Below, in pieces: positions 24,970-33,604 of a DNA stretch of 64,000 nt (within the stretch, counting starts at the first letter, position 1; each line of letters opens with the position of its first letter). The position numbers and the translations under genes were made by a program. Source of the stretch: Methanolinea mesophila. GTDB lineage: Archaea; Halobacteriota; Methanomicrobia; Methanomicrobiales; Methanospirillaceae. The stretch lies in contig NZ_JAGGKR010000001.1 of assembly GCF_017873855.1 (NCBI RefSeq), positions 1,927,529 to 1,991,528 of the forward strand, read 5' to 3'. Below the pieces are notes generated by a model. That model searched no databases. It was not told where the DNA came from and was given only the letters and a program-made list of their open reading frames with translations.

Positions 24970-26535
24970 CTATAATGTTCTGATCAGTGCACCTTTGTTG
25001 GCTGCCGAGGTATGGATGAACGATGCAGGCATTCCCTGGAGCGTCTCCCGGGCGGCACGTTCCAGCGCCTCCGGGGAGGAATCCGTGATACAGAAGACCG
25101 TGGGGCCGAACGAGCTCATCCCCGTGCACGCGGCACCTGCTGACCGCAGCGAACGCAGGAGGTCCCCGAGTAACGGAGGTTGGTGGGAGCGTTCAACCTC
25201 CTTGAACCCAAGGTGCTGGATCCGGTTGACACCGGCTGAAAACAGGTCGAGGTCATGGTCCACCAGTCCGGGAAGGACCCTCATGATTACTTCGCGGCAG
25301 GTCTCACCTACTTCGCCCTCCGGTACTGGACACGCCCTGGCAAACAGGTCTCGTTCCTCTTCGCCGTAGACCCGGAGGAGACCGTGCGGAATGACCAGGA
25401 GTATCTTCCATTCTTCAGGGAAGGCGTGCCGCGCGATAAGCGGCGGTGGGGAAAGCCCTTTGGATGCCGCCGAAGGGAGAAAAGATTCCTTATCTGCAGA
25501 CTTTCCAAAACTATGGCCGCCGTCGAGGAGAAACCCCCCGAATTCGAACGCGCCGGTACCGACCCCGGAGGTCCCCCCCCGCCCAACGGCCCTCGCCAAA
25601 TCCCTGACCGGGAGTTCGATCCGGTAGAGTTCGCAGACGGCCCGGGCTGCCGAGAGACCGAGGGCGGTACCCGCTCCCAGGCCCACGTGTTCAGGGGGTG
25701 ATGCATGCAGGGTAAGGAACGCACCGCCAGATATTCCCTGCCGGGCAAGAATTGACAAGGCCGCCTCGGCGGCCCTCCGGTTCATTTCCGGGGTCCCCCC
25801 CTCAACGTGCAATTCCGGTGCCAGACGGGCCGAAAGGATGGTAGCGGGGTGCGAGAGGGCGAGGCCGATCCCTCCGTCAACTCTCGACAGTCCCCCGTGG
25901 AGATCGATGAGCCCGAAATGGAGACGAGAAGGAGCGCGAATGACCACACCAGCCCCCCTGGAGAAGGACTGCAGAGGAAATTTCTCGTGAATATCAATGA
26001 GCGGGAGTCCCCGGTGGATTATCCGGTATTCCCGTTTGAGGAGGAGATCGCCGGGGTCGATCCCGAATATCCCGGCCATTTTCACTCCGGCGGGTTCCAG
26101 TCCTACGTCCAGGAGCTCTCTTCTGGCCTCGATCTTGTGCCCGGCAAGGATTTTACCTATCGGGACGTCCGCCCTCACCAGGTCCTGGCGCCATTCGGGC
26201 TCCAGCCTGGAAAGCGGGGTGAACGAGGTCGCGTGGAGCAGCACGGCGCCCGTATCCGTGCGCCTGATCTCGACGATCCGGTGGTTCACCGCTTCTCCGG
26301 GGTTTACGTCCAGCACTGCGGACTCCGGCGGGGAGGATTCGACGGTCTGCTGGTGAAGGGTGACGATCCCGATCCCCGAGCCGGTGAACGCCTCCAGCAG
26401 GCGGGTAACGGACCCGTCCGTGGTTATGAGAATCTTCTGCACGGGGGAAAGGGGGCCGACGTCCTCTTCGATGCTCCGGAGGCTGGAAGAAAAACGATCC
26501 CCGGCATCCCCGTCAGGCTTCCCGGGAGATTGCAT
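24970..26535 (-). CDS. Chorismate lyase-like domain fused to RFAP synthase (methanopterin pathway)
   Basis: 521 residues with two domains. Residues about 30-190 match the DUF98/UbiC-like chorismate lyase type (SPVQKILITTDGSVTRLLEAF, then DVPIGKIL). Residues about 205-521 are a GHMP-fold beta-ribofuranosylaminobenzene 5'-phosphate synthase (VIRAPSRLHFGLIDL, GLGAGTALGLSAARAV, TSGVGTGAFEFGGFLLDGGH, SFGPTVFCI). The first makes a hydroxybenzoate from chorismate and the second joins the aromatic acid to PRPP, two early steps to tetrahydromethanopterin. It lies upstream of trpE, which also uses chorismate. The fusion strongly implies channelling. Confidence 0.85.
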   Translation of the reverse strand: MQSPGKPDGDAGDRFSSSLRSIEEDVGPLSPVQKILITTDGSVTRLLEAFTGSGIGIVTLHQQTVESSPPESAVLDVNPGEAVNHRIVEIRRTDTGAVLLHATSFTPLSRLEPEWRQDLVRADVPIGKILAGHKIEARRELLDVGLEPAGVKMAGIFGIDPGDLLLKREYRIIHRGLPLIDIHEKFPLQSFSRGAGVVIRAPSRLHFGLIDLHGGLSRVDGGIGLALSHPATILSARLAPELHVEGGTPEMNRRAAEAALSILARQGISGGAFLTLHASPPEHVGLGAGTALGLSAARAVCELYRIELPVRDLARAVGRGGTSGVGTGAFEFGGFLLDGGHSFGKSADKESFLPSAASKGLSPPPLIARHAFPEEWKILLVIPHGLLRVYGEEERDLFARACPVPEGEVGETCREVIMRVLPGLVDHDLDLFSAGVNRIQHLGFKEVERSHQPPLLGDLLRSLRSAGAACTGMSSFGPTVFCITDSSPEALERAARETLQGMPASFIHTSAANKGALIRTL

Positions 26536-26921: not shown

Positions 26922-28871
26922 TTGACCACAAAGGAGTCAATAATCCGGGAACTGGGGGAGAACGAGCTGGTTCTTCCGGTCCTGGTTAATAATGCCCTGG
27001 CAGCGAACGACAGGATAAAATACTATTTTACACTTCTTCAGGCCGCCCTCGCAAAAGGTCTGGAACCGTACCGCGAATATTCAAATCTGCGCATCGAGCG
27101 GGAGACCGCAGGGATCACCGACAGCCAGCTGGACACCGTGGTACACGGGAGCAGCATGGTTTCCCCCGATACGATAAGGATCCCCCGGGTGGCAGGGATC
27201 TTTTCTGAGATCAAGCAGTGTCTTGATGAGATGATCCTGCCCTTGAAGATGGCGGCTACGGAGGCGACGGAACGGTATGAAGAGCGTGCCCTGGGGCTCA
27301 TGGAGCGTATCGGCACGGCGCCGGACGACCTGGTGCGTAAGAGTGTCATTCTCGACATAACATCGGGAGACCCGGAAGAGAACGACAGCGTGCACCTGCT
27401 GGTTATCGACCTCCATCAGGCCCTGAACCGGCTGCAGAGCCAGCTTTCAGGTGAGACCGTAGACGGTGCGATAACTTATCTTCTCCAGCCCGGCGATCAT
27501 GACATCATAAGGGCATTCATGGCCGGAGTGAACCGGAACGCCCCATTGAAATTCGGGCATCCCGGGTTGGGGACCACCGCGACACGAACGGGCCGAAAGA
27601 TAGTGATCCAGAATGACATCGGGATGACCGATGCGCATGTCCTGGTGATCAACGTGACCGATGAGGAAGTGTCGGTTATCTACACCGATATCCACATGCC
27701 TCGCGTCCAGTTTTTCCACAGCCTTTTCCCGCCCGGTACGATAAGATGGGAGGATACGCTCTCGAGGAAAGGTGCCGAAGACTTCGAGAAGAAGATGTAT
27801 CACCTCTCGGTCGGGAGATATCACGCCCGCGATAGGGAAGATCTCCTTGGCTTCGCTGAATTCCTCGGTTCGAGGCTTGTGTTCCTGATCGACTGGAACC
27901 GGGCCCGCAAAAAGATGCGGAATTTCCTTCCGAACAGGGATAGCGTTGCCGTGTTGAAGTGGGCGGCGGACCACAATTACGGGCACATGGCGTTCCTTCT
28001 GGTAGGAGGAGAGCAGCTTATCTACGAAGCCCTCCAGTTCGCCGCGGGAGTGCCCATCAGGTACGGGGAACCCCTCTACCAGATACTGGGCCGGGAAAAG
28101 ACCGTGGAATACTTCCAGTGGGTGATGAAGACCGCGGCATCGGGGCTCGTTGCCGGCCAGTCCCACCAGCTGATCCAGGACGAGATCCGGACCGAACTGC
28201 TCAGGTATTTCCGTTCCGCACACGAGGACCTCATCACGATATGCGAGGATCACGCCACCTACACTATCGAGGTCGCGATGGTGGCAAGGGACTCCCTCCT
28301 CCATATCCGGCGGAGGATGAACGGGGAGTTCGTCACACGGAATGCAAAGAGGGCAAAGATCTGGGAAAGCCGGGCCGATGCACTGGTGAACGAGGTCAGG
28401 AAGATCTCGCGGAGGATCGAGGAGGGCGGGTTCTTCGAGGAGCTGATGCATACCTCCGACGACGCCCTCGATTATCTCGAGGAGGCCTGTTATTTCATCA
28501 CCCTGGTCCCCGGGATATCGTCCTCCAGGGGAGTGAGCGAGGAGCTGGTGACGATGGCTGAGATCGCGGTCAGGAGTTGTCAGGAATATCTCCGGGCTCT
28601 CATGGCCTCCAGGTATTTGCACCGGTCCTACAGCCGGGAGGAACTGCAGGATTTCCTCCTCGCGATAGACCGTGTGGTGGGGCTCGAGAGGGAATGCGAC
28701 GAAGAACTCAGGAAAGCCCAGAAGTCCATCCTGATGGAGACCACAGATTACAAAGAACTCTGGCTTTTTTCCGAGATCGCACGAACTGTCGAGGAGTCCA
28801 CCAACTCGATGATGAAGGCTGCGTTCCTGCTCCGCGACGCCATGCTCGAGCAGATGAGCAGGAGGGGATGA
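26922..28871 (+). CDS. Large protein with a C-terminal DUF47/PhoU-like helical domain
   Basis: 649 residues from TTG 26922, with GTGGAG as ribosome-binding site. The N-terminal 400 residues are a soluble domain I do not recognise (ITDSQLDTVVHGSSMV, DAHVLVINVTDEEVSVIYTDIHMPRVQFF). From about residue 440 the protein is all-helical with the DUF47/PhoU-like pattern (ESRADALVNEVRKISRRIEEGGFFEEL, AIDRVVGLERECDEELRKAQKSI, TVEESTNSMMKAAFLLRDAML). DUF47 proteins accompany phosphate transport, but no transporter is here. It is coupled to the PPDK-like gene that follows (start overlaps stop). Confidence 0.75.
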   Translation: MTTKESIIRELGENELVLPVLVNNALAANDRIKYYFTLLQAALAKGLEPYREYSNLRIERETAGITDSQLDTVVHGSSMVSPDTIRIPRVAGIFSEIKQCLDEMILPLKMAATEATERYEERALGLMERIGTAPDDLVRKSVILDITSGDPEENDSVHLLVIDLHQALNRLQSQLSGETVDGAITYLLQPGDHDIIRAFMAGVNRNAPLKFGHPGLGTTATRTGRKIVIQNDIGMTDAHVLVINVTDEEVSVIYTDIHMPRVQFFHSLFPPGTIRWEDTLSRKGAEDFEKKMYHLSVGRYHARDREDLLGFAEFLGSRLVFLIDWNRARKKMRNFLPNRDSVAVLKWAADHNYGHMAFLLVGGEQLIYEALQFAAGVPIRYGEPLYQILGREKTVEYFQWVMKTAASGLVAGQSHQLIQDEIRTELLRYFRSAHEDLITICEDHATYTIEVAMVARDSLLHIRRRMNGEFVTRNAKRAKIWESRADALVNEVRKISRRIEEGGFFEELMHTSDDALDYLEEACYFITLVPGISSSRGVSEELVTMAEIAVRSCQEYLRALMASRYLHRSYSREELQDFLLAIDRVVGLERECDEELRKAQKSILMETTDYKELWLFSEIARTVEESTNSMMKAAFLLRDAMLEQMSRRG

Positions 28872-30466
28872 TGGAAAATCTCGGGAAAAGGATGATCAGG
28901 TTTGGCCCCGGCACCGTGGATGAGGAGATAACCGCCGAATATTTCGGAAACAAGGCCGCAGGGCTGGCGGAGCTGGTACGCCTTGGGATACCCGTCCCTC
29001 CTGGTTTCGCACTTTCGGTCGTATTGTGCGAGGAATATTTTGCGGGGGGCGGAAAGGCGCCTGATGATCTCCGGGAGCTGCTCAGGGAAGGGATATCGTT
29101 CCTTGAACGGGCTACATTGCGTAAATTCGGGGGGGCGAGAAACCCCCTCCTGGTCTCGGTCAGGTCCGGGGCCGCGGCCTCGATGCCCGGGGTGATGGAG
29201 ACGCTCCTGAATGTGGGCTTATCCAGGGAAACGGTCCGGGGCCTGATATTTCTGACAGGGAACCCTCGTTTCGCCTGGGACACCTACCGGCGCGCACTCC
29301 AGAATTTCGGGCAGGCCATATACGGACTGGATGGAGGATGGTTCCATGCCCGGCTTTTGGAAGCGATGGCCGCGGAAGACATCCGGGACGAAGTCGAACT
29401 GGATGCACACAGCCTGAAGCAGCTGTGCGACGAGTATGAGAAGGAGTTTTCTACTGCAGGAGTAAATTTTCCGCAGGACGTGATGGTTCAGCTCGAACTG
29501 TCCGCGCTCGGGGTATTGCGCTCCTGGGAGGGACCGCGTGCGCGTGCGTTTCGGAAGATGAACCTGGTGGAGGGTGCGCGAGGAACCGCGGTGACCGTCC
29601 AGGCGATGGTCTACGGCAACCTTGGATCGCAGTCCGGTGCCGGGGTGGCCTTCACGCGGAACCCGTGGAAGGGCGATAACGAGCTGGTGATAGACTTCAA
29701 GTTCGGGGCCCAGGGAGAGGACGTGGTCTCGGGTGACCAGGCCGCGACAACCCAGGATGAATTCAGGGCGGCAATGCCCGGCGTATACGATCAACTCTCA
29801 GGTTTCGGACGGATGCTCGAACTGCATTTCCACGATATGCAGGATATTGAGTTCACCGTTCAGGACGGCGATCTCTTCATCCTCCAGACAAGAATAGGGA
29901 AACGGTCGCCGTATGCGGCACTTGCCATCGCGGTAAACATGGTGATGGAGGGTATACTTACCTCGTCCGATGCGCTGTGGATGTTGCGGGATGTAGACAT
30001 CGACCGGATCTCGGTCCAGAAGATCAGTTCCCGCGATTATCCGGTGGCAATCGGGGTTCCGGCATCAAGCGGAGTGGCTTCGGGAATGATTGCCCTCAGC
30101 AGTGAGCGGGCGGCTCGCGACGCGGAGGAAGGAAAGGACGTGATCCTCGTGAGCGAGACTGCGTCACCGGACGACCTGCCGGGGATCCACTTCGCCAGGG
30201 GACTCCTTACCTCCCGTGGCGCAAGAACCTCCCATGCGGCAGTGGTAGCCCGGCAGCTCGGAAAGATCTGCGTGGTGAACTGCACGACGCTGGAGATCGA
30301 TCTTCCCCGCCACCGATGTACCATCGGTGGGCAGGAACTGCGGGAAGGCGAGGTAATCACAATCGACGGCAACACCGGAAGGGTATACCTCGGAGAAGTT
30401 GAAGTGATCCTTGAAAAACCCCAGGATTTGATCGATACGGTCCACTCGTGGGAAAATACCGGGTGA
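28871..30466 (+). CDS. PPDK-like protein lacking the PEP/pyruvate barrel
   Basis: 531 residues. Residues 1-380 are the ATP-grasp domain of pyruvate phosphate dikinase: FGNKAAGLAELVRLGIPVPPGF, LVSVRSGAAASMPGVMETLLN, GAGVAFTRNPWKGDNEL, GAQGEDVVSG. Residues about 400-520 form the swivelling phosphohistidine domain with the phosphorylated His in SRGARTSHAAVVARQLG. The protein then stops; the C-terminal TIM barrel of about 340 residues that binds PEP/pyruvate is absent. It can probably use ATP to phosphorylate its own His, but the acceptor must be different or be supplied by a partner. An overlapping DUF47-like gene precedes it. Confidence 0.85.
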   Translation: MENLGKRMIRFGPGTVDEEITAEYFGNKAAGLAELVRLGIPVPPGFALSVVLCEEYFAGGGKAPDDLRELLREGISFLERATLRKFGGARNPLLVSVRSGAAASMPGVMETLLNVGLSRETVRGLIFLTGNPRFAWDTYRRALQNFGQAIYGLDGGWFHARLLEAMAAEDIRDEVELDAHSLKQLCDEYEKEFSTAGVNFPQDVMVQLELSALGVLRSWEGPRARAFRKMNLVEGARGTAVTVQAMVYGNLGSQSGAGVAFTRNPWKGDNELVIDFKFGAQGEDVVSGDQAATTQDEFRAAMPGVYDQLSGFGRMLELHFHDMQDIEFTVQDGDLFILQTRIGKRSPYAALAIAVNMVMEGILTSSDALWMLRDVDIDRISVQKISSRDYPVAIGVPASSGVASGMIALSSERAARDAEEGKDVILVSETASPDDLPGIHFARGLLTSRGARTSHAAVVARQLGKICVVNCTTLEIDLPRHRCTIGGQELREGEVITIDGNTGRVYLGEVEVILEKPQDLIDTVHSWENTG

Positions 30467-32839: not shown

Positions 32840-33604
32840 ATGAATGAAGAATTATTGATGAGTCTCCCCCTGAAGTTTGTGAATAACACGATTGAAGACT
32901 ATGCGATGCAGGTGACCTTCGACCCGCGGGAAGGGACCGGAAAAGTGGTCTACAATCTTTCCCTGGTTGACGACAAGGATCTGGAGACATCGATCTCAAT
33001 TTTTAAGGACGCGTATAAATCGGGGATCTGTGTCAGCGGACTTGTCCGTTTCATCGAAGCCGGAAAAAAGATCGGGGATCTCGTGGTTCCGCAGGGACAG
33101 ACCGCGATAATCACCATGTGCAGTTCGACCCTGGATGGGATCCTCTTAAAAAAAGGTGTTCCGCTCAACCCGATCGGCGGCGGAGTCGTCGAGATCGAGC
33201 GAAGAATCCCCCGCAGGTTTACCCATATCATCCTGTACGAGCATACGACCATCGACCCGCTCCAGGTCCTCATATCTCAGGAGATCACCTCCATCACCAG
33301 CGTGATGCGGAAGGGCAGCGGAAACATCCTGGCAAACATCCGGCAGTGCCATATGGAGGCGGAGGCCCTCATCGGGGAAGTGATGGACGACCTTGCAGGG
33401 AGCAGTTTTTCGGGGATACTGGACGTGGGCCTCCCGAACACACCCACATTAGGCGTTGCGGTCGACCCTCAGTACATGGGGATAGTCGCGGTCGGAGGTA
33501 CCAACCCGATAGCCGCGATCCGAGAAGACGGGGTTAATGTCGTCACCCACGCCATCAAGGGACTGATGGAAGCGGATACCATGATCGAGATACTGGATTA
33601 CTGA
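32840..33604 (+). CDS. NrpR-type regulatory domain protein without HTH
   Basis: 254 residues matching a single NrpR/DUF128 ligand-binding domain: VTFDPREGTGKVVYNLSLV, VPQGQTAIITMCSSTLDGILLKKGVPLNPIGGGVVEI, DVGLPNTPTLGVAVDPQYMGIVAVGGTNPIAAIREDG. NrpR senses 2-oxoglutarate and represses nitrogen-fixation and assimilation genes. The DNA-binding winged helix found in NrpRI is missing, as in NrpRII of Methanosarcina, which acts with a separate HTH partner. A TATA (ccttatagaac) about 25 bases upstream implies a leaderless transcript. It overlaps the convergent trmB-type gene by 7 bases. Confidence 0.85.
   Translation: MNEELLMSLPLKFVNNTIEDYAMQVTFDPREGTGKVVYNLSLVDDKDLETSISIFKDAYKSGICVSGLVRFIEAGKKIGDLVVPQGQTAIITMCSSTLDGILLKKGVPLNPIGGGVVEIERRIPRRFTHIILYEHTTIDPLQVLISQEITSITSVMRKGSGNILANIRQCHMEAEALIGEVMDDLAGSSFSGILDVGLPNTPTLGVAVDPQYMGIVAVGGTNPIAAIREDGVNVVTHAIKGLMEADTMIEILDY

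Follow-up and report, generated by a model that had tools for sequence, protein, structure and literature searches.

What does half of a pyruvate phosphate dikinase (PPDK) do in a genome when it comes without its phosphoenolpyruvate (PEP)/pyruvate barrel? The question is raised by two genes on the forward strand of a 64,000-nt stretch of Methanolinea mesophila DNA (contig NZ_JAGGKR010000001.1; hereafter the window). Gene 1 (26922..28871) encodes a 649-aa partner protein made of an unnamed N-terminal domain and a PhoU-fold C-terminal domain, and gene 2 (28868..30466) encodes a 532-aa PPDK ATP-grasp and phosphohistidine protein. Our tentative reading, which we hold at slightly under even confidence, is that the two products form one two-subunit phosphohistidine phosphotransferase working in phosphate (polyphosphate) storage.

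Gene 2 matched positions 14 to 523 of the 865-position TIGR01828 profile (PPDK; E = 8.7e-159), and a Pfam scan returned PPDK_N and PEP-utilizers only, with no match to PF02896, the PEP/pyruvate barrel. This agrees with an earlier note on this DNA, made from the letters, which had described gene 2 as keeping the ATP-grasp and phosphohistidine (TSHAAVVAR) domains of PPDK but ending before the barrel. Nine of ten mapped PPDK positions, which we take to be the ones that matter, are kept: K22, R92, E279, D321, E323, Q335, R337, T453, and H455 correspond to K29, R99, E284, D326, E328, Q340, R342, T454, and H456 of gene 2, and the only changed position is T253, which is A258 here. The seven kept residues from K29 to R342 lie in the ATP-grasp nucleotide-binding part (PPDK_N; residues 23 to 345, 28934..29902), whereas His456 (codon 30233..30235), set in the motif TSHAAVVAR and invariant in 17 of 17 sequences, belongs to the swivelling phosphohistidine domain (PEP-utilizers; residues 390 to 516, 30035..30415, with the PF00391 match at 423 to 504). 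The nearest solved structures are PPDK chains (E of about 1e-173), with 40% identity to 9pzl_A across 493 aligned residues; rifamycin phosphotransferase, PigC, and RedH, superfamily members with other acceptors, were weaker matches.

The typical PPDK character of these two domains would also suit a split PPDK, in which a barrel supplied by another gene lets the complex make or use PEP. A free barrel elsewhere, which the earlier note had named as the finding that would speak against its proposal, was sought in the genome (98.98% complete). The only PF02896 (PEP-utilizers_C) match falls within a frame of 809 aa that also contains PPDK_N and PF00391 and that is, as judged from its domains, a complete PEP synthase and not a split subunit; a split enzyme was rejected for this genome. 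Barrel genes occur in all 20 other pair genomes, mostly in frames long enough for enzyme I of the phosphotransferase system, PEP synthase, or whole PPDK; most of the shorter barrel frames (203 to 464 aa) border on the end of a contig in a fragmented assembly. Overall, we regard a split PPDK as highly improbable.

The two genes are instead tied to each other. Gene 1 starts with a TTG at 26922, which coincides with the aligned start Met of its relatives, and its TGA stop (28869-28871) lies within an ATGATG that holds the gene 2 start (ATG at 28868 or 28871; end at 30466), directly preceded by AGGAGGGG at 28860-28867; this coupling junction spans 28860..28873 and confirms the overlap of stop and start described previously. 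A near-full-length gene 1 was found in 17 of the 344 genomes of the phylum, six more having weak DUF47 matches only. Used as a query on the same 344 genomes, gene 2 retrieved 79 at E = 1e-60, and short-frame PPDKs (527 to 565 aa; own frame, 634) were present in exactly the 17 genomes with gene 1, all other PPDK matches listed being frames of 885 to 1008 aa. Among these 17, G231 has a full PPDK in addition to its short one. In all 16 relatives the two genes are adjacent, even in L046, where gene 1 is fragmented. Beyond the phylum, a gene 1 alignment scan of 84,980 species genomes confirmed 472 relatives, the best 80 of which were used. Across 101 loci (the window plus 16, 80, and 4 others, duplicates included), 95 have gene 1 and gene 2 side by side in constant order and on the same strand, with a median gap of about 10 nt; the remaining six are cut off by a contig edge, which lies inside gene 1, immediately behind it, or near the start of gene 2. 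Since both genes and their adjacency are kept down to about 40% identity, the pairing is not due to chance. Pairwise distances of the two genes correlate over 45 loci (r = 0.79; 0 of 2,000 permutations), as they do within 19 bacterial (r = 0.90) and 26 archaeal (r = 0.91) loci, a correlation also expected from common descent. The two genes are an obligate module.

The pair, which the earlier note proposed to search for in archaea, is not confined to them. Hosts found in the scan include Methanomicrobiales, Methanosarcina, Methanolobus, Methanoperedens, Thaumarchaeota, Thermoplasmata, Betaproteobacteria, Pseudomonas mandelii, Accumulibacter, Deltaproteobacteria, and Planctomycetes. Two of the carriers, Methanolobus psychrotolerans (L104) and P. 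mandelii (L149), are cultivated. Gene 1 is sparse in bacteria, with 3 of 329 genomes in one phylum (seed genome included) and, in a search for further domain fusions, 1 of 149 Planctomycetota genomes, the seed alone. The betaproteobacterial genome G348 carries two complete gene 1 copies (L208 and L211; E = 2e-249 and 2e-248) and is the only doubled case of the three matched genomes in its phylum search. In two Methanosarcina loci gene 1 is interrupted in frame (L119:7132-7134 and L134:2296-2298), by a TAG where a relative has Glu and by a TGA, and in L046 and L140 it is in pieces; assembly error, decay, or pyrrolysine may each account for these cases.

Gene 1 has the build reported for it previously, a large N-terminal domain of unrecognised type followed by a PhoU-like helical end. 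Its whole-protein model has a mean predicted local distance difference test (pLDDT) score of 84.7. In the model, residues 421 to 645 (28182..28856) superimpose on 3l39 with Z = 25.0 and a root-mean-square deviation of 2.9 over 205 residues, i.e., a PhoU fold, and on eight other PhoU-type chains with Z scores of 20.8 to 22.2. By sequence the likeness is faint: PhoU_div/DUF47 was matched at E = 7.5e-4 (19.4 bits, under the gathering cutoff of 24.4), 8 of 16 relatives match it at E values up to 1 (best, 2.9e-6), and among PDB sequences the gene 1 profile picked up PhoU (E = 0.022) and one unrelated chain (E = 0.66). The motif E(D)xxxD, which is given for PhoU-type proteins (PMC5686610), occurs three times in this tail, as E482xxxD486, D513xxxD517, and E589xxxD593, conserved in at least 97% of 93 aligned gene 1 sequences (near-duplicates included; 82 different at 98% identity). 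Gene 1 thus shares its C-terminal fold and these three motifs with PhoU/DUF47 proteins (PhoU_div, PF01865; PDB 3l39, 2iiu, 4q25) but differs from them in an added N-terminal region of about 415 residues and in its tie to a PPDK half.

That added region (residues 1 to 415, 26922..28166), modelled separately with a mean pLDDT of 87.6, yielded no convincing solved-fold match. It has no Pfam or NCBIfam match, Foldseek against the PDB returned nothing at E = 0.001 (best, 0.059, unrelated), and the best hits by VIA, Prex-1 (Z = 8.6) and the phage T4 MotA C-domain (Z = 7.9), are within the stated noise of the tool. A CHAD-like N-domain is not claimed, as a weak resemblance to the CHAD portion of YgiF (Z = 6.6), seen at first, was absent from the best 50 rows for the N-domain model. 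The best-conserved part, residues 190 to 365 (27489..28016), is the proposed acceptor station: its mean majority frequency in the alignment is 0.70 versus 0.55 to 0.59 elsewhere, and 42 of its positions are conserved at 97% or more, among them H213, T218, T219, Q230, N231, D232, H239, D256, H258, R261, D324, N326, R329, K330, and H355. The whole N-domain carries about 25 near-invariant polar residues, including H158, H165, H213, H239, H258, and H355. In the model, H213 to T219, D232, H239, and D256/H258 lie at the ends of the consecutive strands 217-223, 226-232, 240-246, and 249-256, and because of these positions at strand starts and ends, the residues should share one sheet edge.

PPDKs lacking the barrel are already in print as kinases, the case in point being VadK (Rv1127c) of Mycobacterium tuberculosis, which autophosphorylates on His422, interacts with enzymes of the methylcitrate cycle, and gains solubility when co-produced with Rv1126c, its operon partner (PMC13400623); no mention of PhoU, DUF47, polyphosphate, or archaea was found in the main text of that report. 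The pair itself was not found, and is unnamed, in the literature searched on PPDK, VadK, PhoU/DUF47, polyphosphate, and CHAD. Like VadK and the short PPDKs of Actinomycetota, gene 2 is a PPDK without barrel, has an operon partner, and holds the equivalent of the His whose autophosphorylation is published for VadK. To relate these lineages we built a quick maximum-likelihood tree of 68 rows (no bootstrap, midpoint root, one long branch, L047), in which the VadK-like rows came from Actinomycetota genomes and did not include Rv1127c. The 46 pair gene 2 sequences form one side of a branch with a Shimodaira-Hasegawa-like approximate likelihood ratio test (SH-aLRT) value of 99, as do the 18 full-length PPDKs (SH-aLRT, 98) and the 4 actinobacterial VadK-like sequences (SH-aLRT, 100); VadK-like and full-length PPDKs group together versus the pair (SH-aLRT, 99). 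Gene 2 departs from PPDK (TIGR01828; PDB 1kbl, 1kc7, 1dik, 9pzl), with which it shares the ATP-grasp and phosphohistidine domains and the catalytic His, in the missing barrel, the obligate partner gene, and a separate clade. An actinobacterial 856-aa frame in the VadK-like clade (L206:6148-8718, minus strand) has 325 residues beyond the His domain and could be an intermediate of barrel loss. Because the two clades differ and this member of the VadK-like one keeps those residues, barrel loss was most likely independent in the pair and in VadK. In the Actinomycetota loci L203 to L206, a comparison that did not extend to Rv1126c, the gene 1 profile had no credible match, and the neighbour conserved in two of them (L204 and L205), about 201 aa long, is unrelated and gave no PhoU match. 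With a separate clade and different neighbours, identity of the pair with VadK was rejected; the pair probably differs from VadK in partner, origin, and theme.

VadK nonetheless lends substance to a regulatory alternative, which we consider possible but rather doubtful. Gene 2 would then be a histidine kinase that autophosphorylates on cues of ATP and phosphate and binds or modifies target enzymes, gene 1 would be its sensor, scaffold, or phospho-acceptor, and the polyphosphate and polyhydroxyalkanoate (PHA) neighbours would be under its control instead of pointing to its substrates. Autophosphorylation, enzyme binding, and partner-dependent solubility of VadK (PMC13400623) agree with this, as does the PhoU fold, typical of phosphate regulators, and so does a neighbourhood that varies by lineage, with polyphosphate genes in methanogens and PhaC-like genes in three Nitrosopumilales/Thaumarchaeota loci. 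However, the near-invariant polar residues of the gene 1 N-domain resemble an active site more than a scaffold, and the pair lies outside the clade of the VadK-like proteins, whose loci show no gene 1 neighbour.

The evidence that points to phosphate storage comes from the genes around the pair. PPK1, Ppx/GppA, CHAD, CYTH-CHAD, and metallophosphatase-HD proteins are recurrent neighbours at methanogen pair loci, and of 102 pair-locus records, a set that still contains duplicates and two flank-only stretches, 16 have at least one polyphosphate gene. After deduplication, polyphosphate genes were counted in the flanks of 13 of 51 methanogen-lineage loci versus 2 of 80 control segments (0.9 to 20 kb each, from pair genomes), a difference with a Fisher p value of 8e-5 that depends on the restriction to methanogen lineages, chosen after the matches were seen to be methanogen-heavy. 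The 51 loci were listed by hand and include L103, labelled Thermoleophilia, whose gene is 51% identical to that of the window. Both control matches are Ppx only, on contigs drawn from the PPK1 listing, and PPK1 or CHAD occurs in none of the 80 control segments. Among the 17 phylum genomes with the pair, PPK1 lies within about 10 kb of it in four (G049, G086, G187, and G247). In the planctomycete locus L151, a CHAD domain (PF05235; E = 9e-35, residues 79 to 304) is fused ahead of gene 1, CHAD being described as a polyphosphate-binding domain (PMC6537752). The earlier note had suggested sensing of energy or phosphate; its direction was right, and the neighbours point more narrowly to polyphosphate.

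Several observations weigh against a storage role or loosen its statistical footing. A first comparison, with 40 control segments and all lineages, gave p = 0.07; the polyphosphate-gene profiles were built from the pair loci themselves, and these loci are phylogenetically non-independent. Genome-level co-occurrence with PPK1 (16 of 17 versus 98 of 327 genomes) was dropped as evidence, since it is confounded by kinship. No polyphosphate gene was seen in the DNA examined at 38 of the 51 methanogen-lineage loci, within the window, or, L151 excepted, at the bacterial, Nitrososphaerota, and Thermoplasmata loci of the 80; PPK1 of M. mesophila is about 1.26 Mb away on the contig. The fusion of CHAD to gene 1 was found once, in one metagenome assembly. 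As the N-domain fold is unrecognised, the substrate cannot be read from the structure. A class III PhaC-like PHA synthase (304 to 318 bits, under the curated 365) adjoins the pair in three Nitrosopumilales/Thaumarchaeota loci (L122:3948-5309, L126:1561-2937, and L129:3932-5317, all on the minus strand), pointing to a broader role in storage or energy. Finally, mechanism, direction, and acceptor are for this protein predictions from sequence, model, and analogy.

The absence of a polyphosphate neighbour from most pair loci leaves room for another proposal, that gene 1 binds a specific small molecule or carboxylate for phosphorylation by the complex and that the polyphosphate neighbourhood is incidental. 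Rifampin phosphotransferase and prodigiosin ligase perform such chemistry with PPDK-like halves, and their superfamily is represented among the weaker gene 2 matches listed above. Yet no biosynthetic neighbourhood recurs: bacterial loci showed no recurrent neighbour (66 of 89 neighbour proteins aligned and scanned; best 25 of 79 families), the neighbours recurring across methanogen genera are the polyphosphate genes, and L151 joins CHAD to gene 1. We judge this proposal unlikely.

How might a phosphohistidine phosphotransferase of this kind work in storage? Its first step would be the charging of gene 2 by ATP on His456 in the manner of the first PPDK half reaction, ATP + Pi + His -> His-P + AMP + PPi (Pi, phosphate; PPi, pyrophosphate), proposed because of the conserved PPDK residues and the VadK precedent; on these same grounds we hold charging by ATP to be very probable. 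The His domain would then swing to gene 1, whose conserved N-terminal domain would serve as a second docking station in place of the absent barrel, an idea that follows from the obligate pairing and makes gene 1 a likely obligate second station. There the phosphoryl group would pass to, or come from, a phosphate acceptor, for which the neighbours and the one domain fusion make polyphosphate the best candidate. From its fold, the PhoU-like tail is probably a sensor of phosphate or metal or a tether for the complex. The phosphotransfer unit suggested by the earlier note, with ATP, His, and an acceptor bound by the partner, is to this extent strongly supported by retained residues, perfect co-occurrence, fixed adjacency, correlated divergence, and the example of VadK, with the acceptor standing as a prediction. 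That the module serves phosphate storage is, on the neighbours, an evenly balanced proposition. That polyphosphate is itself the direct acceptor or donor, as the CHAD fusion and the chemistry would allow, we find rather unlikely. The pair would in that event be a further, unrelated kind of polyphosphate-forming (or -using) kinase, a PPDK-derived phosphohistidine carrier for phosphate exchange of ATP/(AMP + PPi) with gene 1-bound polyphosphate, which is a similarly doubtful prospect. PPK1 works through a phosphohistidine intermediate. The proposed intermediate of the pair would likewise link a phosphohistidine to polyphosphate, and PPK1 genes are neighbours at some of the pair loci; the two differ in that no sequence relation was seen and that the predicted donor chemistry of the pair forms AMP and PPi, not ADP.

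Of 28 pair genomes examined for PPK1, 22 have it, and the six without it are the five Nitrososphaerota and one Thermoplasmata (draft assemblies; PPK2 not searched). Nitrosopumilus maritimus is reported to form polyphosphate granules without any known polyphosphate gene (PMC11082331), and a survey of archaeal polyphosphate describes Crenarchaeota as lacking PPK1 and PPK2, allows for uncharacterised pathways, and makes no mention of a dikinase or CHAD (PMC6864096). Because the pair genomes lacking PPK1 belong to Nitrososphaerota and Thermoplasmata and because of the N. maritimus granules, the pair, if it does act on polyphosphate, would be a candidate for the role of the polyphosphate gene that is missing from some archaea. 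If polyphosphate is indeed involved, phosphate storage gains an extra enzyme, and polyphosphate synthesis in PPK-less archaea becomes testable via two genes; if the module is instead regulatory, PPDK halves became signalling kinases at least twice. Earlier work placed the barrel-less PPDK kinase in mycobacteria and related bacteria; the pair represents a separate lineage of such proteins, apparently of single origin, tied to gene 1 as partner and spread over archaea and bacteria.

Two further genes of the window stand apart from this module. Upstream, at 24970-26535 on the minus strand, a chorismate pyruvate-lyase-like domain (PF01947, residues 38 to 188) is fused to beta-RFAP synthase (NF040726, residues 198 to 517), so that a single protein may cover two adjacent steps of the methanopterin pathway. 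Downstream, at 32840-33604 on the plus strand, a 254-aa protein with no other Pfam match consists of a free-standing NrpR regulatory domain (NRD1_2; E = 1.4e-89), and its gene adjoins that of a TrmB-type regulator on the opposite strand.

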